From the NCBI RefSeq assembly GCF_026151205.1, contig NC_087081.1, forward strand, positions 13,682,340-13,746,339: a stretch of DNA of 64,000 nt, in the 5' to 3' direction. Position 1 is the first letter of the stretch. Every line of letters begins with the position of its first letter. Shown in pieces: positions 1,539 through 63,838 of the stretch. The notes under the pieces are model-generated. The model searched no databases and was not told the origin of the DNA. It saw nothing but the letters and a program-made list of their open reading frames with translations. Both the position numbers and the translations under genes were made by a program. This DNA comes from Bolinopsis microptera. Its lineage: Eukaryota; Ctenophora; Tentaculata; Lobata; Bolinopsidae.

Positions 1539-2901
1539 CTGTATAATAATTATTAGTTGTTAAAGGTCTTGAATTTCTTAGAGCAACCAGTTTGTGGTAA
1601 TACAACGTGTGTTTCCTATTGAAAGTTCATGAACGTCATAATTTGAGTACTTCAGAACAATTTCGATCACAAGAAAGAAGAAGGTTTGTTTGGGGACTGC
1701 TTTATTAGCCAGTCAATGTTTACGAATATAATAACTTTATTACATAAAAATAATATATTATAACATAAATAGATAAAATCTTAAAAATAATATTTGCACA
1801 CAATTGATAAATAAAAAATGAAAAGGATGATTTATTGATTTAAACAAAAGATAAAACACACTGGGCTTCCAAAATCTTTTAAGAGTCACGCTTAGTTTGT
1901 TTGGGACTGAGTTAGGATATCGTAGATATTGCTATGCCATTAGTTTGGATATATAGTGTTGTGATTGTTAAAATCAATTACGGTTTGTGCTGATAGGAGA
2001 ATAGTGATATTGGGGAATGTGGCGGGGGGGGGGGGGGATCAGGTACTTAGTGCCGTATGTGACGTTGACTAAGTGCAGTATTGGAATTTACAAAAAGGAC
2101 CCACCCACCCCTTTCACGGTACCAACTGCTTTTCGGATAATATTAAGGACACCCACCCCCTTTAGCCGGCTTTTGCGGTTCTAAATGTTGAGAAATCACG
2201 GTACTAACTGTGTATTGGTATATAAAATAAGATACCTACCCAGAAATTGCTTTAAACAGCTCATTAAACATTGGAAAATGGGCAAATTTAACCCACTATT
2301 TAGAAGGGGTTTTGTTTTCAATGTAGTCGAATTAGATAAAAAGTTTTTTTAAAAATTTTAAAATTTAAAAAACCCAAAAAAAATTTAAAAAACCTCAAAC
2401 CCATTCCCAAGATTGAAATTTGAGGTAAAATGGGTTTTTTTTGGGTTGGATGTATCCCCTTTAGTACCATTTAGGATGTGTAGCTTATCTGTTAATTTGC
2501 AATGTTGATATTATACCATGATAAATCCTGTTAATTGCACAGTATTAAAGTGGAAATGTACAAGGAAACCACTCCTTGTGTAATGTGTATACAATACAGT
2601 GTTTTGTTATTTGTTTCTATAAGCACTATTAGAACAATTCCTATGTGCCAGTGAATTGTTTTGTTTGCTTTTCTGTACTTCTATTAAAGTATTAACAGTT
2701 AGAATTTGGTCTACGTCTTGTTATTGTCACTTTTCTATTGAATTGTTACTAAATGATGATTGAATAGTTATTTCCAATGTCACTTAAAGGTTACAAGTAA
2801 CTGGAAATTAACTATTTTCAAGTCATTTCATCTTTAATTTGTATCTAATTTACCACAATAATGTACAACAGAATATTAAATATATAGCATCTTAAGCTCT
2901 G
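1539..2901. other. Intergenic spacer between the two GPCR genes
   Basis: AT-rich non-coding sequence with a G14 run at 2024-2037 and an A/T homopolymer-rich stretch around 2340-2450. I see no ORF, repeat unit or clear promoter element. Confidence 0.6.
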
Positions 2902-4247
2902 ATGGCAAACGTGAGTTCAGAATGGTCTACTTGGGACAACCATGAGGTGTATACAGGGGACGCCTTAGAAGTTGGACCTTCGGAGACCCTTGACAAGTTC
3001 CTTGGCGTTGTTCTAGTTTTGAGCACTATGTTTGGACTCCCAGCAAATGTAATCTCTTTTATCTACTTTGTAAAAAGAGCCACAACAAATGTGTCTTTAA
3101 AACTTTATTCAGTTGTTTCTTTGATAGACAGCATTACAAGCTTGCTGATCATTGCATGTGCAAAAGTTCTCTTTGAAGGAAGAAATCCTGGATGGTTTGG
3201 AGACATATATTTCTGCAAATTCTGGGCTATTGCCTTTGAAATGATCTCTCAATATTCTATCTTTCTTGTGATGATGATTAGTGTAACTAGGACAATGACT
3301 ATCATCAAACCACAATACAAAATCAATAAAAATGCAGTTTTGATTGCACTGATACTATTCCCAGCTGAAAGTTTGCTAGAGAGAGTGATAGGTACTCATA
3401 AATCTGTGAGGGATATGTATGGATTCAGTACTGACCAACCATTTTGCTGGGTGAATTCTTTTTTGCAACATGTTCGCACAATCTACAAAGCTTTGGAAGG
3501 CCTTAAAATTGGTGCTGCATCACTGATCACTTTTCTATCCTTTATTGTTTCAATTCGAAAACTCTATGGAGGTAAAAAGGCTGGATCCATGGAAAAGATA
3601 CACCGAGCATCTATTACAATTGCTCTCTTTACACTCATATTCCTGCTCTGCAATTTACCTTTCTTTTTCAACAAGCTGATCCACGCTATATCAGTGTATG
3701 TGATGTACCCAAAGTATCCGCCAGGTAGATATTTGATCAGTTAAATTGCTTTATTAGAAGGAGATCCCATAAGTGGAAATGCAGACATAGTTCAATGTGT
3801 GTTTTAAAGTGTTTGGCTGCCCATCATATTTTATTCTGTACGATTTAAAGGTATCTGATGAAAATATAGTATGTGATAATTAGTGGTAAATGCTTTAAAG
3901 ACGTTTGATAAATTATGTATGCTTTACAGTTTACAACATTCAGCTGTAATTTCAACTATAATTTTATTGCAGGAATCTACAAGAGGTATTTCATGTATTA
4001 CTACTCATTCCCGATAAGCAAGGTGATATTTGTAGCACTGAACGCAACTTGCAACCCAATTCTCTACATGTGCAGAATGAAAGACTACCAGAACTGGATA
4101 CAAAATATTCTGAGATCTAATAAAATCTCAAGGAACATGAATACAGAATTCTCATCAGCCAGTGGTCGTGATTGTGGTCAAGCCTTGCAGCATGGTATTG
4201 CTTCTAGGAGCCAAAACCAAGACAATTATAATGAGATTAGTGTTTAA
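2902..4247 (+). CDS. Class A (rhodopsin-like) GPCR, copy 2
   Basis: Two exons, 2902-3724 and 3973-4247, joined in phase 1 (CCGCCAG|gtagat; attgcag|GAATC), give 365 aa. Exon 1 is 823 nt, exactly as in copy 1. The N-terminus shares the block SEWSTWDNH and has an NVS sequon. TM2 keeps Asp (SLIDSIT), TM3 begins at FCKFW, ECL2 has PFCWV, TM6 has LLCNLPFFF and TM7 has NPILYMC. The DRY equivalent is VTRTM, again without the acidic residue. The C-terminal tail is rich in Ser, Asn and Gln and unlike that of copy 1, while the TM core is closely similar. This is a lineage-specific tandem duplicate. Ligand and G protein cannot be told from sequence. Confidence 0.9.
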
Positions 4248-23400: not shown

Positions 23401-26400
23401 TTAATAGTTAATCGTAGGTTAAGGTCAGGGTTAGCCGTTATAAGGTTATTATTTAATTAGGGTTAAGCAATCAAATTCAAAGAAACATAACATTAACGGG
23501 CGGCGGGCCGCAGGTGTTATTGTTATTTGAAGTAGAATAAATATTAGATCGACGTGGGCTCGTTATATTATAGTTGTGCCCGGTCCAATTTGTAGGTTTA
23601 TAACTTACCAATACCATGCATCAAGACCCGCGCCGAGTTGGACTCGTCGTTACCTAGGTTGATTGACGATGTCAATCCGTCAAGATCGTTGCTCTGCGAA
23701 GCAGAGCAACGATCGACGAAGCAAGAATGCTAGTTCGCGCGGCGCGTCGAAGCGGCAAAGTCCTCCAATTACCTGGGGACCTCAGGCTATCATGTTCATA
23801 AAGAGATTAGGCGGAATGACAGGCTGAGCGCGGCCCAGTAAGACTCGTCGACGGTCCTATTTGGACGGTAATATTTATGGAACACATATTTTACAAGTAT
23901 CGATCACCCGTTAAGGTCCAATTTATCGTTTTGAATAAATGTTAAACTGTTGATTGCTTTTTTGCTTTTGTAATTGTTAAATTAAAACAGTTTAACTTTA
24001 AATTGTCGGCAGCGGATGTTTTTTATTGGTTATTCTGAATTTTAAATGCTTCCCCACACCCCATTATAATTAATCGAAAGGGGTTATTCGTACAGTTACA
24101 GTATAAGTATTATTATATCACGATCACGGTACACTTATTATAAGTATAAAACATAGTTATAACAGGCAAAATTGGACATGACAACATTGACATTTAAATA
24201 AATTAAAATGTCAAGTTTGTCGTTAGGCAGGGTTAGTCGTTTAGTTTTTGGCGAAAGCTTGTTAAGGGATGGGGTTGTGCCGCATTGCAATGCCAATGCA
24301 TATTTTAGATAAACATATTTGTATCATAATTTTAAGATTATTATGTACAAAAAGGTTAATTTCATGTCAGTCAGACTCAGACTCACAATCGGAGGCACAC
24401 AGAGAGGTATTTATATTCGATGAGCCTTTGTTTTGTAGTTGACCGATGATCACAATTGTAATACAATCATGTCATCTGTAATTTGTAATCGTATGTAATT
24501 ATGGTTGATATATATAATAAGAACACTGATCAATTCAAGCTTAACAAGCCAAATTATGATTGAAATCATCAAACAAATTAATATCGTCTTTAGCGTTATT
24601 TATGATTGCTGAATCGCAGTATGAATCGGGCAGAATTATATTTCACGTCTCACGATATAATCGTAAAAATCAATTTTATAACTTAAAGTTGAAATATCAA
24701 CCAGTTCAGTTGATGATTCTTGCAAAAAAAAGCAGTATTGTACCTAACTATGCAGCATATTGGAACCGTAAGTGCCACATGTGAGTGCCGCAAGTGTCGC
24801 ATGCTGCATATGATAGTGCCGCAAGTGCCACATGTGAGTGCCGCAAGTGCCACATGCTACATATGATAGTGCCACAAGTGCCACATGTGAGTGTCGCAAG
24901 TGCCACATGTTACATATGATAGTGCCACAAGTGCCACATGTGAGTGTCGCAAGTGCCACATGTTACATATGATAGTGCCACAAGTGCCACATGTGAGTGT
25001 CGCAAGTGCCACATGTTAGTGCCACGAGTGTCACAGTGCCACATTTACGTTATAAGGTTGTCTGGGGGGGGGGGGGGGGGGGTGGCTGGTGCCAAATTGT
25101 CGTTTGAATTGTTTCCTCTGTTATATAAACTTATTTATTCGATAGTATTAACCATATGCATGCATGGTGCAATTGGTTACAAATGCGCCGTCTACACTTT
25201 ACAGTCTACCTTATCGAACCTTATTTGAACGGACATTAAATGAACGCTTGAGCCCTAACGTTCATCTTAATGTCCGTCCAAGTTAAAGTCCGTTGTTTTT
25301 TTTCAAACATTTTTGCACTTCCAACTTTTTGTCCAGAATATGACTATGAGGAAGGGTTCTCCTTGGTCTGCCGGAGGCACAGAAAAATTTACTAGTACTA
25401 TATGATGTTTTCAAGGGTCACTTGGCGGAAAAAGTCAACGAAATTATTATTTAATGGCACTCAACAACATAGTTCATGAGCTAGTCCCCGCCAACATGAC
25501 AAACTTGTTCCAGCCTCTAGATATTACGGTAAATCGTGTTGACAATTGACATGGAAATTGTCCGACGTTGTTATAGTTCATATTACTCAGGGGAGGTAAT
25601 GAAACAGTGCTAGGAAAGCTCCTTGTGATGTTAAGGTTAACCTAAAGTTTTCTAGGATAAAACCACTTCACACCGAATGGCTTGTAAAAGTTAACACTGA
25701 AATGCAGGACCGGGGTAGTTTGATAAAAAAAGGTTTCCGTAAAACTAAAAATCACTGATGCTTTAAGCATGGACTATTTCATGCACGAAACCCCATTTAA
25801 TGAAGATGATATGTGATAAGACACTGATCATGTACACATATTTTAACGTTTTTGCTGCTTAACGACTTTTTTTCTTACTCACTGTATAAAAATGGATTTA
25901 AAATCATTTGCTGAAATAGAAAACTTTTAATAAAATGAAAAAAATGAGGATTTTTGATGGTTAGGTTTTGAATGCCTTCTAGCGTTCATATTAATGTCCG
26001 TTCATAATTATGTCTGTTCATTTAATGTCCGTCCAAATAAGGTCCGATAAGGTATAGTAATTCATTTCATATATACATGATATAGTTTAAGTTGGACTTA
26101 CCATCTTTTGGGAAAGCCCTGTAACCGTCCAGTACTATATCCTTGGAATCTGGTGATGTAATTGTTATGGATACTGTGCCTTTTATCCACACTTCATTCC
26201 ACCAGTCTGTTGTACATTCTGACATCAAAAAGTTGTAAACGATGACCCCATTGACATCTATTGTTAGCCTTAGTTCGTCGTTAAAAGAAACGGTCCAGAT
26301 CTTTTCATTTTCACTCGGTAAGGTGGCGGAGAATTCTGCGTTCTGCACGCAGCCGTAAGTCTTTATGAACATCATTTCATAAAATGAAAGATCTAACTGT

Positions 26401-28698
26401 CCGGTTTCTTCATCATCCTTGTTCAAAAAGTGAACAGTTATCCAATCTTTGGTCCCCAAAACGCTATCAGTTTTAAATTGTACTACCGCACTATCTACAT
26501 TTCCAGTTTGATTGTAAAAATCATCACTTCCGTAATTGTTGGTGATTATGTCTGCAGCTATCCAGTCTTCGTCATCCCAGCCGCTCACCTTGGGTTCTGA
26601 TGGGGAGTTGTTTTCATAAATGAATTGATAATTGGTCCATTAAATTTAACTTATGCGTAATGTTCGAAATTATTTTGGTTATATTATATGCTTATATAAT
26701 GGCCTAAACTTAAAGATTAGCAAGATATAAATGGAAATAAGACAAGGGCAGACAATAAATGGGAAGACGGAGAGACAGGGAGAGGGGAGACGGGTAGACG
26801 TACTTGCCCTGTAACCGTCCAGTACTATATCCTTGGAATCTGGTGATGTAATTGTTATGGATACTGTGCCTTTTATCCACACTTCATTCCACCAGTCTGT
26901 TGTACATTCTGACATCAAAAAGTTGTAAACGATGACCCCATTGACATCTATTGTTAGCCTTAGTTCGTCGTTAAAAGAAACGGTCCAGATCTTTTCATTT
27001 TCACTCGGTAAGGTGGCGGAGAATTCTGCGTTCTGCACGCAGCCGTAAGTCTTTATGAACATCATTTCATAAAATGAAAGATCTAACTGTCCGGTTTCTT
27101 CATCATCCTTGTTCAAAAAGTGAACAGTTATCCAATCTTTGGTCCCCAAAACGCTATCAGTTTTAAATTGTACTACCGCACTATCTACATTTCCAGTTTG
27201 ATTGTAAAAATCATCACTTCCGTAATTGTTGGTGATTATGTCTGCAGCTATCCAGTCTTCGTCATCCCAGCCGCTCACCTTGGGTTCTGATGGGGAGTTG
27301 TTTTCATAAATGAATTGATAATTGGTCCATTAAATTTAACTTATGCGTAATGTTCGAAATCATTTTGGTTATATTATAATATGCTTATATGGCCTAAAGA
27401 TTAGCAAGATATAAATGGAGATAAGACAAGGGAAGACAAAAATGGAACGAGCAAAAGGCGGGAACACGGGGAGGGGAACACAGGAAGAATAAAATGGAGA
27501 ATCGGGGATTCGAGAGGTGACTGGCCAGTCTACCTTTCAAGGAGACGTTTTAATTGGTCCGGCAGCCCATCATTGCTGATCAAATACTAATTTGTAAATT
27601 TGATTGGTTGTAATTCTTAAAAAGACTATTAAACCAGTACCGTTGGTCGTAGTGGAATACACGAAATCCTTTCTACAGATGAATGCTTATTTAAAGCAAA
27701 AAATAAATGGAGATAGGAAAAGGGAAGATGGGGAGACAGAGAGACGGGGAGACACTGAACAGTGAAATTTATAAGCATTGCCCCTTACAACTATATTTAT
27801 CTTAATCTTATATCTTTATAAGAAATTTTACCGAAACAATTGGGTAGAGTGGACCGCTGCCAACATGGGAAAAGCGGGCGACCGATTTCATTCTCGGTAT
27901 CATTTAGCATTTGGCGGCCAAATTCTGAATTTTGCATTGCAAATTTTGGAATTTGGCCGCCAAATTTTTCTAAAGGCCTAACTCAAAATTCCAATACAAA
28001 ACTTAAGGTCGAAATGCGATTCTACGTTGATTCTGAAAATTTCATGTAAAAATATTGAAACCCTATTGAGTTCTATTGTTTTGAGTGAAATCAGTTTCGC
28101 AAATATTGCGAACTGAGATATGGGCGATTTTGTTCATTTTTTGCGATTGTTTGAACACAGAATCCACAGTTAGGTAGATACTGCGCTGATAATCATAGAG
28201 AATGTGTAGTATAGGCTTACCTTCCATATAAAGTTGGTTTTATTCAAAAATATTGATATTTGATCAATTTATGGGCCAAAATCGATCAAATTTGGTGCGT
28301 ATGCCCAAATATGGTCATATGGTTTTTGGCTCATAACTCAGTCATTTTTTGTCCAATCTTGATGAAAATTCATATACGAGTTCAGGGGACCACTAGCTAC
28401 AAGTTAAAGTCACCTAAAATCTGGGTTTTGGGCATGTTCAGGGTATTTGGCTAAATTGGGCCTAATTTGGACCAAATATGGGCGTGGCTGCCCCGCGGGC
28501 ACCGTTTGGCGGTTGGGGTCCGAAAACCCCTCAAAAGTTCGGTCACTGGTCCTAGTTTGTTGGACAACTACTATCTCCAAACCAAGTTTCACAAAAAAAT
28601 CAGGGTGAACCCTCCCCTCCTTAACCAATAAATTTATTACCTGATTTTGCTTGGTCCAATGATGCAAGAATTAGCATCACTGCCACTAAATAGATCAT
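11470..28698 (-). CDS. Secreted, probably surface-anchored protein with one long ligand-type domain
   Basis: Proposed exons are 28641-28698, 26102-26596 and 11470-11648, giving 243 aa. Exon 1 encodes a signal peptide (MIYLVAVMLILASLDQAKS) and ends in phase 1. The main exon is phase 1-1 and 495 nt long, with donor GATG|gtaagt; it begins EPKVSGWDDEDW. Its C-terminal half (IWTVSFNDELRLTIDVNG, then VYNF, a Cys and YRAFP) resembles FAMeT-like domains of invertebrate secreted proteins; this is tentative. The last exon (acceptor cttcag|ATCCC) is also phase 1. It codes an acidic Asp/Asn/Ser linker and ends in a hydrophobic stretch (ISTILFGTLLCTINMIY) like a GPI signal. It lies 14.4 kb from the main exon, so that junction is inferred from phase and strand only. 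A second copy of the main exon lies at 26.7-27.3 kb. Confidence 0.55.
11716..11739. repeat. Poly-G tract
   Basis: G24 run immediately before the GTGGCAC satellite; a similar G19 run (25064-25082) borders the second satellite. Confidence 0.9.
11758..12230. repeat. GTGGCACTTGCGGCACTCACAT satellite, copy 1
   Basis: Dense repeats of GTGGCACTTGYGRCACT alternating with CACAT and TATCATATGTAGCAT spacers up to about 12,003, then a decayed continuation at 12,130-12,230. A TTTAC-type microsatellite at about 12,091-12,130 separates the parts. The second array is at 24.77-25.05 kb in inverse orientation. Confidence 0.9.
12240..13071. mobile_element. Mariner-type MITE, copy 1
   Basis: An 832-bp non-autonomous element. 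It starts CCTTATCGGGCC and ends GGTCCGATAAGG, and both ends are flanked by TA, the Tc1/mariner target duplication. The terminal regions contain repeated ACGGACATTAA and TTAATGTCCGT blocks. A homologous inverted copy is at 25209-26052. It lies in the long intron of the secreted-protein gene. Confidence 0.85.
13072..15669. other. Repeat-rich non-coding stretch
   Basis: Contains fragments of a MITE whose end reads ACGTAATATGTGAACGAC (about 13,570-13,747, another end near 14,340-14,356) and a C15 run near 13,617. Scattered GTGCCACA satellite pieces lie at 13.75 and 14.63-14.75 kb. No credible exon was found. Confidence 0.6.
14739..14803 (+). repeat. tRNA-like sequence, possible SINE head
   Basis: TGGCACTAATGTGGTGTAAG resembles a degenerate A box. 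GAGTTCGATGC downstream resembles a B box, and CTCGCAACCAGAAGGTAGGG between them is tRNA-like. It does not fold into a full canonical tRNA, so a decayed tRNA-derived SINE is more likely than a gene. Confidence 0.35.
15670..16055. mobile_element. TA-flanked MITE with GGCGGGT-rich arms
   Basis: A 386-bp element with near-perfect inverted ends: CCTTAGTTCGTTTAATTATG at the left, and CATAAATAAACGAACTAAGG at the right. TA lies on each side. The interior repeats ATGGCGGGT in both orientations, giving strong fold-back potential. No ORF. Confidence 0.88.
16220..16501. mobile_element. 282-bp TIR element
   Basis: Inverted ends GGGGCCATCTACTTAG and CTAAGTAGATGGCCCC, with further CGTCCG/CGGAC complementarity inside. 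No clear target duplication. No ORF. Confidence 0.85.
16759..18761. mobile_element. 2.0-kb TIR element at a TTAA target
   Basis: Inverted termini AGGACCAGTTAACTGAAAAA (left) and TTTTTCAGTTAACTGGTCCT (right) are flanked by TTAA on both sides (16755-16758 and 18762-18765). TTAA is the piggyBac-type target, although the termini are not the usual CCC/CCY. There is no transposase ORF, so it is non-autonomous. It lies inside the long intron of the secreted-protein gene. Confidence 0.82.
18766..20100. other. Non-coding stretch
   Basis: No gene seen. Three tandem copies of a 20-bp unit (GTGCATGAATCAATGGTAAA) lie at about 19,671-19,733. Confidence 0.55.
20100..20590 (+). pseudogene. LINE RT C-terminal fragment
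   Basis: Frameshifted pieces typical of the end of CR1-like RT proteins: SYLDYCNSF and FGIGKRL near 20,110, LLQNDLAKA and NRPSRGWTDLSLLVG near 20,175-20,260, then ALKILQVLQGLAPTYLQDML in another frame at 20,278-20,340. Dead. Confidence 0.75.
21200..21910 (-). pseudogene. LINE RT thumb-region fragment
   Basis: Minus-strand translation gives ETKFLGVTVGEDLNWNEHLE, then GMLNRIKDNIPTSLLKDLYH and ESYLAYGITVWGG. These are the conserved post-RT blocks of jockey/CR1-like elements. A degenerate tail with stops (GNEFYRKEHTKPLFNTLQ) follows. Stops and frameshifts make it dead. It differs from the LINEs at 20.1 and 57.7 kb. Confidence 0.8.
21911..22896. other. Non-coding stretch
   Basis: C-rich patch at about 22,122-22,144, otherwise AT-rich. 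No gene seen. Confidence 0.5.
22897..23845. repeat. Second copy of the composite GC-rich repeat
   Basis: Blocks shared with 7.2-8.9 kb: the CCTGAGGTCCCC block inverted at about 22,897-22,970 and 23,769-23,843; GGCACGAGCT and CGCGCCGGGCC with ATTAACAATGGTCAA in direct orientation at 22,962-23,012; and the GCGCGGCGCGTCGAAG/AAGTCCTCC block inverted at about 23,735-23,768. The mix of orientations points to rearrangement, not to a simple inverted duplication. Confidence 0.75.
23684..23714. repeat. Perfect 14-bp-arm hairpin
   Basis: GATCGTTGCTCTGC and its exact complement separated by GAA. It lies inside the composite repeat. Confidence 0.9.
23846..24769. other. Non-coding stretch
   Basis: AT-rich, no recognisable gene; short ORFs show no family features. 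Confidence 0.5.
24770..25053. repeat. GTGGCACTTGCGGCACTCACAT satellite, copy 2 (inverted)
   Basis: Units such as GTGCCACATGTGAGTGTCGC and GTGCCACATGTTACATATGA repeat at regular spacing. The array boundary (GTGCCACATTTACGTTATAA) matches the boundary of the first array in inverse orientation. A G19 tract follows at 25064-25082. Confidence 0.9.
25209..26052. mobile_element. Mariner-type MITE, copy 2 (inverted)
   Basis: An 844-bp element starting CCTTATCGAACC and ending GGTCCGATAAGG, with TA on both sides (25207-25208, 26053-26054). Its interior aligns with the reverse complement of 12240-13071. Its right end lies only about 50 bp from the splice donor of the secreted-protein exon at 26102. Confidence 0.87.
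26102..27420 (-). repeat. 690-bp tandem duplication of the secreted-protein main exon
   Basis: Copy A (exon 26102-26596) and copy B (acceptor at 27286) are offset by 690 bp. Their coding parts appear identical; the downstream flanks differ at a few bases. Copy B breaks off after GGTTACAGGGC, so it lacks copy A's end and its GATG|gtaagt donor. Read through, copy B runs to a stop at 26,679 and adds a tail with a hydrophobic segment (FPFIVCPCLISIYILLIF). A further scrap of the flank (AAATGGAGATAGGAAAAGGG) lies near 27,700. Copy B is either a broken duplicate or an alternative last exon giving a 221-aa protein. Confidence 0.9.
27421..28640. other. Intron 1 of the secreted-protein gene
   Basis: Contains an imperfect inverted repeat at 27909-27965 (ATTTGGCGGCCAAATTC with GAATTTGGCCGCCAAAT-like partner). 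A stretch near 28,285-28,355 resembles 5,630-5,690 (CATAACT-AGTCATTTT-TGTCCAAT), suggesting a shared repeat family. No exon seen. Confidence 0.5.
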
Positions 28699-57344: not shown

Positions 57345-57655
57345 GTTTAATTCCCGTATAACCCTAAAATGGTGTCAAGACTCAAGAGACTAAAATACTT
57401 ATTACCTATTTAATTCGCGTTTTTGACACCACTTGGGGTACCAAATTTTGGGCTCTAAAACTCCTATTTCTTGGCCAATCTTTTATTTTTTCATGCTGAT
57501 TTGAAGGCCATTAAAGCATTTGACCCAGTCAAAAAATTTTCAGTTGTATATCTTTTACGGTTTTTGCGGAAATTCGCGTTAAAGTTGATGCCGTGGTGTC
57601 AGTAAAATGGCACGGATAAATATATATCGTCTCGCTTTATATATAGTATACTATA
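57345..57655 (-). mobile_element. ORF-less derivative of the 29.8-31.5 kb retroelement region
   Basis: The reverse complement matches both flanks of the restriction-like-endonuclease ORF: AAAGCGAGACGATATATAT, CATTTTACTGACACCACGGC and TTTTTTGACTGGGTCA on one side, and CTTTAATGGCCTTCAAATCA and GTCTCTTGAGTCTTGACACC on the other. They are directly fused here as GACTGGGTCAAATGCTTTAA, with none of the roughly 1.35-kb coding insert. Confidence 0.85.
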
Positions 57656-57689
57656 TATAGTATACTATACTTACTGAAAAGTACTAGAG

Positions 57690-59215
57690 TAACCCACCTC
57701 CTCTGGGCCGATGACCTGATTCTGCTGGCTCTCGATCAAGAGAGTCTTCAAAGAATGTTAGAAGTTTTACATACCTACTGTCAAGAGTGGGGGTTATCGG
57801 TTAACATATCAAAAACAGCAATTATGGTGTTTAACCGGGCAGGACGGGTGCTCAAGGACAGTACTAATTTTGTCTACGGGGAAATGACCTTGCCATCAGT
57901 GCGTGAGTACACATATCTTGGAATTACGTTCACACTCACGGGATCTTTAAAACTTGCCCAGATAAAGCTTAGACAAAAAGGGCTCCGGAGCTACTTCTCT
58001 CTCAAGAGTATGCTTGACCTTCGATACCTCCGGAAGACAACTGTGTTTAAGCTTTTCGACACTCTGATTGTTCCTGTTCTATCCTACGGGTGTCAGATCT
58101 GGCTTCCCATGACAAATTTCATGTCTATCTTTGCTTCGGGGAGTTATCCGGCTACTCAGGATACAGCAAAAGACCCCCTGGAGAAAGTTCACCTATCATT
58201 TATGAAATGGACTATGAATGTCAACAAATCGACTTCAAACACCGCTGTGTGGGGTGACACTGGAAGATACCCGCTTGCCATCGAGCTTACGTCCCAAGTC
58301 TATAGCTACCTCGGGAGGTTGGAGGGACTTGACAAAGAGGGATGCTCTTCTTTAGTAAGGCACGCTTACGCCGAGCAGAGGGATCTGAATCTGTTATGGT
58401 TCTCCCGGCTGGAATCCACCAAGAACACAGTGAAACAACTGACAGGAGGAAGTGATATCTCAAACCCGCTCGAAATCAGCGAAGCTATGAAAACCCTTTT
58501 CGTTCAACAATGGAACAAAGAGCGAAAACTCAACAGAAAACTAGGATTCTACAACCTCATCAAGGCAAGCTTCGGTTGCGAAACATACCTGTCGATCAGC
58601 CTACGGCCACAGCAGACTAGGAGACTTGCGCAACTTAGAACAAGCTCGCATCAATACAACATCGAAACTGGAAGACATGGCATGCATCGACATAAACTTT
58701 CGAATAGGGCATGCAAACACTGTTCCACTACAGATGCGGAGTCACTCGATCTTCTTCTAGAGCTTCCTTTCCCTGATCCAATCATCGAAGATGAACTTCA
58801 TGTATTGCGTACTTGCCCTCTCTATGAAGATCTCCGCCACTGTTTGTCCCAACAAAGTAAAACATTACTCTTCTCTGACATTGGACAGATCTTCGCACAC
58901 CCTTCAACCATCGGAGACCTAGGAAGGTTCCTTACCAAAGCTCATGAACGAAGATTCCCTAAAGCGTCCTCCAAACAAATTCCTAACATTAACAATATTG
59001 CCAAATTATAATCTATGACTCGGAACACTTTCAGAAAAGTTCAGTTAAATTATTAAGTATTTTGAATCTCACTCTTAAGATTTACAGGGTTCATTGTATA
59101 TATTATATATTTTATGACTTTTGGGTAAATTTAATTTTTTATATCTGGTCAGACATTACCATTGTAATTTGACTTTTGAATCGTTTAATCCGTTTAATTT
59201 AATCCGTTTAATCCG
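57690..59215 (+). mobile_element. CR1/jockey-like LINE, 5'-truncated
   Basis: An open frame from about 57,690 to the stop at 59,011 begins inside the RT at the catalytic motif LLWADDLIL (variant of YADD; Asp codons at 57,710 and 57,713). It continues GLSVNISKTAIMVFNRAG, YTYLGITFTLTGSL and VPVLSYGCQIW, the palm/thumb blocks. The C-terminus has RACKHCSTTDAES and HVLRTCPLYEDLRHCL, a Cys/His-type motif. The tail ends in ATCCGTTTAAT repeats (about 59,180-59,215). The fingers, motif A and any endonuclease are lost. The frame is intact, so this is a young truncated copy related to the fragment at 35.4-36 kb. Confidence 0.88.
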
Positions 59216-61708: not shown

Positions 61709-63684
61709 TTAAGCTGAAACGGTAAGAAGGTTGGTGTCCTGATCCAGCGAGTTGGAGATGGAGTTGCTGGGTCTTCTTTTGGTGACCACTCTGAAGGAAT
61801 TTGGAGTCATAACCTTGAATCTTACACTATGTAGATAATAAATACTGATTCTGGTGGCAGGGGAAGTGAAGCATATTTTTTGATCCTATAATCACTGTTA
61901 ATTTACAGACCTGTAATCCTTGTCTAGCAATATGATATCGAGTCCCCTGCAATCAGCCTGACCCACGTTACCAATCAGTAACCAGTCCCCGACATCTAGT
62001 TCACCAACGTTTCCTTTTAGGATCAGATCATCTTCATCTCCTGTGTTGCCTGGATATGTTCATATCAATAATATTAGAAAACATATCCTTTATGTGCTTC
62101 GATCTATCCTAATTCGGCCAAAAAGGCTGAATAAAAGTAAAAGTACCCGTCTACCGACTAATATTGATATTAATAATTGAAAAGGTTATACCCGCCACTG
62201 ACAAAAGAAATTTTACGTTTAATGGCTACATATTATATAGATATACTATTAGCAATTAGCAATTTGAATTAGCATATCGGTATTGCGCCTCCCAGAACAG
62301 CAGACGAACAAATGACAACATACCGTAAACAGAGCTGAACATTGTCCTATCTTCGTGTTGAGAATGAACAGTAAAGTTGTGTCCTGTGTCAAGATAGCTT
62401 GCAAACTCTTCAAACATTGACATGTCAATATCGTATCTGGTCTGACCGTCCTTAATAAACGATTTAAGATAAATTTTAACAAATTATGTCCGCAGAAGGT
62501 TTATTATAAAACGCAAAAAATTCAAATTCCTATCCGAGTTCATTTGGGCTGCGTACAACCCATCTGTTGCATTTCCTATTCCAGTTTTATTCTACTGCTG
62601 TTGAATGATATGGCCGTTAATTAAATTTCAAGTCATGTGCTGTTTAGTGTTTATCACAAGGTCTACAATCTACATGGCAATAGCACTGCACCAGCCCACC
62701 TTGTGATACTGTGTCAACTACCAGTTCATATTCTGTATCCTCAGCCCAGACAGCTTCAAATCCTAAAGTACCATTTCCGCATGCGGATCAGGTTTAAAAC
62801 GTGACATGTGATTTGTAGCTTCCTTTATTATAAAGTCATTGGTTGAACACAAATTTAATTTAAAAAATTCCTCCAAAAAATAAACAGCGCCAAATGTAAT
62901 AATCCTGCGATTTGCAATTATTGAAATTATTCTTAAAATTATTTTGATGGGGAAAGTAAAACAATCAAAATTATAAATACTTAAAATAAGTAAACCAACC
63001 TGGTTTTTCGTGACGATGATTTTAGTAGCAATGAGGGAAGTAGACTGGAATAGCTCTTGTCCCAATTCAACATTGAGGACTGTATCAGCCGGTAGATTCC
63101 GTTTCAATTCCATGAACGAGTTTTTTAAAGCTCGGATCTCCGTTAGGGCTGAGTAGATGGACATTTAGAAATTAGAATAATTTAGGTTCGAGAATTTTTT
63201 ACATCACATTATGATAGAATTTTTCATGCCAATGTTAATTATTGTCACTCAATATAAGTACTCACTTTCAAGGACTCCCAAACATATTTCCCGAGCAGGA
63301 CGACCAGAAACTGAAAGGACCTCCTTTACGATTGTATCTGTTCCTTCTTCTTTTGAGAACTGTTCAGTAAGCCTGAATACCACGATGGATCAGTCATCAG
63401 ATACAACAATGATAAGACTATAAAAATTAGATTTCAATTAAACAAGGTTTTGTTTTCCAATCCAATGTTTGTGCTTAATTGTCGCCAAATCTTCGATACT
63501 TGATAATTATGACTCACCTAAAGTTGTTCCCAAGTATGTTGGTTAATTTGATGACATCGCATGATTCTCCTGACGCGGCGAAATTGTTGTAGCCTCTCGT
63601 ATAAGCGTTTCTGATGAAGGAGGACGTGAGGTTTTCAGTTCCGATTACAACGTTCTGTTTACGGGTCAGATTTTCCAGCAACTC
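61709..63684 (-). CDS. Ornithine decarboxylase / antizyme-inhibitor-like protein, 3' part, catalytic motifs lost
   Basis: Exons in transcript order: 63518-63684, 63266-63417 (or 63372), 63000-63148, 62674-62739 (weak acceptor), 62324-62450, 61911-62049 and 61709-61790. The 5' end lies outside the window. Homology to the ODC family is visible in order: NVVIGTENLTSSFIRNAY (ODC RIIYANPCK region), LIIVVSDD (LVLRIATDD), RLTEQFS (RLSVKFG), NLPADTVLNVELGQELFQST (EPGRYYV region), MFSSVYGNTGDEDDLIL (SSSIWGPTCDGLD) and ELDVGDWLLIGNVGQ (VGDWMLFENMG). The HVGSG to GGGFPG stretch is absent, EPG is ELG, and the CDGLD cysteine is replaced. It therefore cannot decarboxylate, which fits an antizyme-inhibitor-like pseudoenzyme or a decaying gene. 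An in-frame TGA follows VSDD unless the downstream acceptor is used. The basic, Ser-rich C-terminus (RVVTKRRPSNS) replaces the family's usual end. Confidence 0.65.
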
Positions 63685-63719
63685 CTGAGGGGTAAAGTAA
63701 GGGTTTAGTTCACGTCATG

Positions 63720-63838
63720 TGGAATAGTACGACGTCAGGTGGGATGCTGTGACGTCATGTGGGATAGCATGACGTCACGTGGGATACTGTGACGTCATGT
63801 GGGATAGTATGACGTCACGTGGGCTGCTGTGACGTCAT
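63720..63838. repeat. CRE (TGACGTCA) minisatellite
   Basis: A roughly 20-bp unit (GTGGGATAGTATGACGTCAC and variants) repeats about six times. Five copies keep the full TGACGTCA palindrome and two are immediately followed by an overlapping CACGTG. Another TGACGTCACGTGAC lies at about 63,958. The array sits upstream of the first visible ODC-like exon, in an intron or promoter. TGACGTCA is the CREB/ATF site; regulatory use is inferred. Confidence 0.85.

Follow-up and report, generated by a model that had tools for sequence, protein, structure and literature searches.

Catalytically dead paralogues of ornithine decarboxylase (ODC) have arisen repeatedly in animals, according to the excerpted text of PMC5574924, which refers to Ivanov et al. 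2010. The excerpts of PMC4595762 place the antizyme-binding region at about residues 113-170 of ODC, name Asp361 as an antizyme contact in human ODC, and describe the position that the C-terminal domain of the second subunit takes on the ODC barrel as the site occupied by antizyme. In the excerpts of PMC10762828 and PMC12803844, we found no description of a ctenophore ODC paralogue or antizyme inhibitor.

The locus analyzed here lies at positions 61709-63684 of a 64-kb window, by which we mean the whole stretch of DNA that was analyzed, and a preliminary description had taken it for a catalytically dead, ODC-like gene and a candidate antizyme inhibitor. We consider it probable that the locus is a highly diverged, catalytically dead ctenophore ODC paralogue whose PLP barrel has been lost or is unrecognisable. 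The recognisable remainder would comprise the barrel end and the C-terminal sheet domain, and the product would be expected to be unable to decarboxylate ornithine or to hold PLP. Such a locus could be a recently dying gene that lost its 5' side amid repeats; alternatively, it could be evolving rapidly as a gene for a short non-enzyme protein. If a protein is made, its likeliest action would be non-catalytic binding to a partner in the ODC system, rather than antizyme capture.

Structure and coding signal of the exon chain

The chain consists of six minus-strand exons over 61709-63684, joined by five phase-consistent GT/AG junctions, with 266 open codons and a stop at 61709, in agreement with the coordinates, strand and exon chain given in the preliminary description. 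Read from the 5' side, the exons and adjoining features are as follows.

65022-67127 (extended window numbering): 66-nt minisatellite, 32 copies, about 1.3 kb beyond the 20-nt repeat
63712..63838, no strand assigned: tandem repeat with a 20-nt unit, immediately upstream of exon A
63518..63684, minus strand: exon A, 55 whole codons and one split codon; ODC similarity undetectable
63266..63372, minus strand: exon B, strong donor, coding-like; ODC similarity undetectable
63149..63265, minus strand: intron B-C, 117 nt
63000..63148, minus strand: exon C, last barrel helix/strand; the AEPGR counterpart is VELGQ
62644..62787, minus strand: candidate exon D, an open frame between C and E; excluded from the chain
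62324..62450, minus strand: exon E, counterpart of ODC residues of about 315-357; support from order only; weak acceptor
61911..62049, minus strand: exon F, the WGPTCDGLD counterpart is YGNTGDEDD, followed by VGDWLL; strongest ODC match
61709..61820, minus strand: exon G, C terminus and stop; acceptor weak; similarity undetectable

Candidate exon D was excluded because it is not needed to connect exons C and E, which meet directly in phase 0, and an in-frame ATG at 63164, just 5' of exon C, offers an alternative start. The five donors of the chain rank between the best 0.2% and the best 4.5% of GT sites, and the acceptor and donor of exon A are each within the best 0.2% of sites, while at the weak acceptors of exons E and G, 53% and 59% of AG sites, respectively, score equally well. 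The exons have a G+C content of 43.7% and the introns one of 32.3%. For a codon score, 1514 codons from other genes of the same genome served as the training set; compared with random open stretches, it reached p<0.05 in three of the six exons, namely B (0.026), E (0.035) and F (0.0017), and gave 0.11 for A, 0.068 for C and 0.27 for G. An opposite-strand open frame over exon G, at 61718-61831, scores higher than exon G itself.

Elsewhere in the window, two similar rhodopsin-family GPCR frames lie in tandem on the plus strand, at 277-1137 (PF00001, E=1.2e-8) and 2896-3741 (PF00001, E=9.4e-6, below the family cut-off). On the minus strand, the open frames at 26070-26639 and 26682-27329 are identical over their first 80 residues and are probably the outcome of a recent tandem duplication; no Pfam match was obtained for the frame at 26070-26639.

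ODC homology, catalytic residues and the missing barrel

Against Pfam, the 266-aa chain matched the C-terminal sheet domain PF00278 with E=6e-7 (30.1 bits against a cut-off of 23), and the barrel family PF02784 was unreported at E<=10 in a search whose HMMER filters discard most weak matches. The family profile was built from seven members: human ODC, a portion of the T. brucei enzyme and five ODC-like proteins encoded in the same genome. The family HMM aligned only residues 98-214 of the chain (E=2.3e-10 for one sequence). A PDB search returned AZIN1 first, with E=0.0035 and a 6-bit margin over ODCs at E 0.25 or worse, and none of the PDB matches extended beyond residues 146-214. In the best local alignment with human ODC, exons C-F are identical at 34 of 106 aligned residues. 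Genome-wide, a search with PF00278 at E<=0.001 gave two matches, C8 and C7 (described below), and did not return the exon-chain locus. When the 266-aa protein was searched against the genome at E<=10, its own locus was the sole match, with no close paralogue.

The individual exons were compared with shuffled sequences. For exon F, no shuffle out of 500 equaled the observed score when the target was the seven-member profile or human ODC, and a single one out of 500 did so when it was C2 alone or C7 alone. For exon C, aligned end-to-end in the expected region, shuffles scored as high in 3 of 2000 cases against human ODC and in 0 of 2000 against human ODC, C8 and C2 combined; against C2 or C7a alone the counts were 79/2000 and 109/2000, and in an unrestricted local test 52/500. 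Exon E alone was equaled by 732 of 2000 shuffles against human ODC, and its placement rests on its position between C and F. Exons A and B were equaled by 1206 of 2000 shuffles when compared with the barrel of human ODC; of five profiles, the most favourable one gave 56/2000, and against the other four the two exons did no better than shuffles. Judged from these comparisons of sequence, similarity to ODC begins with exon C and continues, via the final barrel strand, into the C-terminal sheet domain, and the identity of exons A and B as PLP-barrel exons is unproven, as they are not reliably separable from shuffled sequence. The preliminary reading of a chain that follows ODC from the PLP barrel to the VGDW block is thus retained for exons C-F and not for the barrel. 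Given their strong splice sites, exons A and B may represent a barrel that has diverged past recognition.

The changes of EPG to ELG and of PTCD to NTGD are present as previously claimed. By alignment, Glu274, Gly276 and Asp361 are kept, and Pro275 is replaced by Leu, Arg277 by Gln and Cys360 by Gly; Asp332 is seemingly kept in exon E, which can be aligned in more than one way. A loss of Asp332 throughout the family was considered and found to be wrong, since this residue is the Asp of LYDHAH. Cys360 and Arg277 have roles in ODC activity. As both are replaced and no barrel is recognisable, with none carrying Lys69, His197 or Gly235-237 found within 57 kb upstream, ODC activity would not be expected of this locus, which is consistent with its original designation as catalytically dead.

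The 5' side of the gene falls outside the 64-kb window, so that its front could not be sought in the preliminary description, and we added 57 kb of further sequence for the upstream search. Among 3099 open frames of at least 12 aa in these 57 kb, searched with the family profile, no barrel exon was found upstream of exon A (best E 15), and a spliced profile search for barrel exons over 20 kb upstream, 3 kb of it inside the window, also found none. In controls, for which each gene under test was first removed from the profile, barrels were recovered at 1.5e-18 (C7), 4.2e-12 (C2) and 2.1e-71 (C8), but short exons weaken to E 0.36 and more; the first exon of C2, removed in this manner, gave E 0.36, and a short, diverged barrel exon could therefore escape the search. 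A barrel exon concealed in the B-C intron, which by the earlier account would have made the enzyme active, is ruled out, because the 117-nt intron is too short to hold an exon with HVGSG...GGGFPG. The reported absence of this stretch accordingly stands between exons B and C, although the size of the loss, put at roughly 50 residues, is not measurable because nothing preceding it is recognisable. The upstream flank contains long open frames that resemble, by eye, a LINE endonuclease and reverse transcriptase, and in the downstream flank the stretch at 57647-59008 is a reverse transcriptase fragment (PF00078).

Relic, short gene or inhibitor

Neutral decay was simulated with base frequencies hand-set near intron values. 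Exons C-G remained stop-free in 11% of 1000 runs at 0.1 substitutions/site and in 1.7% at 0.2, and the whole chain in 2.6% and in none, respectively. The rarity of stop-free outcomes, together with the identity to human ODC, indicates that the divergence probably took place mostly while the sequence was coding; as all frames are still open, decay, if any, would be recent.

There is an appreciable, if lesser, chance that the locus is a recent pseudogene, an ODC-like copy that is truncated at its 5' end and has ceased to be under selection. The barrel exon was not found in 57 kb, repeats lie on both sides and the acceptors of exons E and G are weak, all of which would be in keeping with a relic; yet 266 codons without a stop or frame break limit the time since constraint was lost, and no close copy was found elsewhere in the genome at E<=10. 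The preliminary description had offered a decaying ODC paralogue as its second option, and this part of it accords better with the missing front and the repeat-rich flank, with the reservation that the frames are intact. It is rather unlikely that the chain combines two units, in which exons A and B belong elsewhere and a short gene starting at the ATG at 63164 (MSIYSALTEIR...) encodes a 180-aa protein consisting of the ODC C-terminal domain on its own. This ATG is preceded by a stop, the 180-aa product matches PF00278 at E=3.2e-7, near the value of the long chain, and exons A and B are without ODC similarity, but the B-C junction is phase-matched and its splice sites are fair. The recent pseudogene and the short gene are two ways in which the locus could be a dead ODC paralogue, and the probabilities of these readings overlap.

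That the product is an antizyme-inhibitor-like pseudoenzyme, which would bind antizyme and free ODC, appears improbable from the sequence. The locus is ODC-derived and without the catalytic residues, as an antizyme inhibitor is, and Asp361, the antizyme contact, is kept by alignment. The top PDB rank of AZIN1 also favors this role, as does the presence of an antizyme gene in the same genome (L019, G000:C1:21439359-21439550; E=4.9e-7), whose joined pieces of 182 aa match PF02100 at E=1.8e-10; its frameshift site did not turn up when the sequence was simply scanned for TCCTGA and two words like it. Against this, the barrel surface that binds antizyme has no recognisable counterpart at the window locus, which leaves the inhibitor role proposed in the preliminary description unsupported there, and Cys360 is replaced here but kept in AZIN1, so that the pattern of losses differs. 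Very improbable, finally, is a stand-alone ODC C-terminal domain that would act as an ODC inhibitor by replacing the C-terminal domain of the second subunit on the ODC barrel, blocking the active dimer without antizyme.

ODC-like genes of the genome and comparison with known systems

The genome contains at least five matches to PF02784. The most ODC-like is the C8 gene, in which Lys69, His197, Gly235-237, Glu274, Arg277, Cys360 and Asp361 are all in place.

L008 3270 to about 4600 (G000:C8:1959269 on): C8 ODC, a single large exon whose frame is broken within a run of five G

This frame break is possibly an assembly error. The C8 protein has His119 and Asp137, as in T. brucei ODC, which is a poor antizyme binder. 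In a search for prokaryotic relatives of the C8 ODC, 154 stretches fit a pattern and none was confirmed. In three related C7 genes (L009, L010 and L011; G000:C7), Lys69, His197, the Gly loop and Cys360 are all in place, with FHPG for FHVGS and GGGYK for GGGFPG; their products may act on a different substrate. At Arg277 they read Ser, Ala and Ala, an uncertain assignment since the position adjoins an exon border, and the C7b and C7c models are incomplete. Intron positions of the ODC paralogues, compared by eye, were of no help in placing the window gene. In another gene family of the genome, 5 of 32 glutamate-receptor-like matches lie inside 76 kb (G000:C3 15860547-15936263); the best PDB match of genes L027 and L023 is the receptor ML032222a, which we take to be a Mnemiopsis leidyi gene, and L025 is 77% identical to it (87/113 residues). 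These receptor matches point to a host that is a ctenophore close to Mnemiopsis, though probably not Mnemiopsis leidyi itself.

A second pseudo-ODC was found at C2.

G000:C2, about 6975874-6977963, minus strand: pseudo-ODC (L012), near-full-length; four exons give an open 394-aa part

The C2 protein carries the barrel (PF02784, E=3.3e-23) and the C-terminal domain. Lys69 is replaced by Met, Asp88 by Tyr, His197 by Ser (Val in the phmmer alignment), Gly235-237 by Lys-Phe-Asn, Glu274 by Asp and Cys360 by Asp, and Arg154, Gly276 and Tyr389 are kept. Its best-conserved segment is the stretch 110-141, in the antizyme-binding region of ODC, with 13/32 residues identical to human versus 75/312 elsewhere (one-sided p=0.037, uncorrected for the choice of stretch). 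Position 119 is His and position 137 is Phe; as His at 119 weakens antizyme binding of human ODC, and Asp at 137 likewise (excerpts of PMC3207831 and PMC4595762), these two residues count against C2 as an antizyme inhibitor. In both C2 and the window locus the catalytic residues are replaced and the frame is open, but C2 keeps the barrel together with the C-terminal domain, and its sequence makes it the better candidate for an antizyme inhibitor. The window locus is a weak witness on dead ODC paralogues, and the C2 gene is the one that deserves tests. A weak match of the C2 protein at C13 (E 0.05) was rejected as chance: the family HMM gave nothing significant, and the open frame at C13 resembles ribosomal protein L9.

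The window locus shares with human ODC1 and T. brucei ODC the C-terminal sheet domain and the counterparts of Glu274 and Asp361, and differs from them in lacking a recognisable PLP barrel and in having Gln for Arg277 and Gly for Cys360. It resembles AZIN1, its top PDB match, in being ODC-derived with enzyme activity unexpected, whereas AZIN1 has a barrel that can be aligned with that of ODC (4zgz) and also keeps Cys360. Inactive invertebrate ODC homologues such as planarian ODC5/6 are likewise ODC paralogues in which key residues are replaced, although the excerpts of PMC5574924 describe replaced residues rather than a missing barrel. Dead ODC paralogues are already known as a kind, of which the window locus would be a further example, probably one without the barrel.
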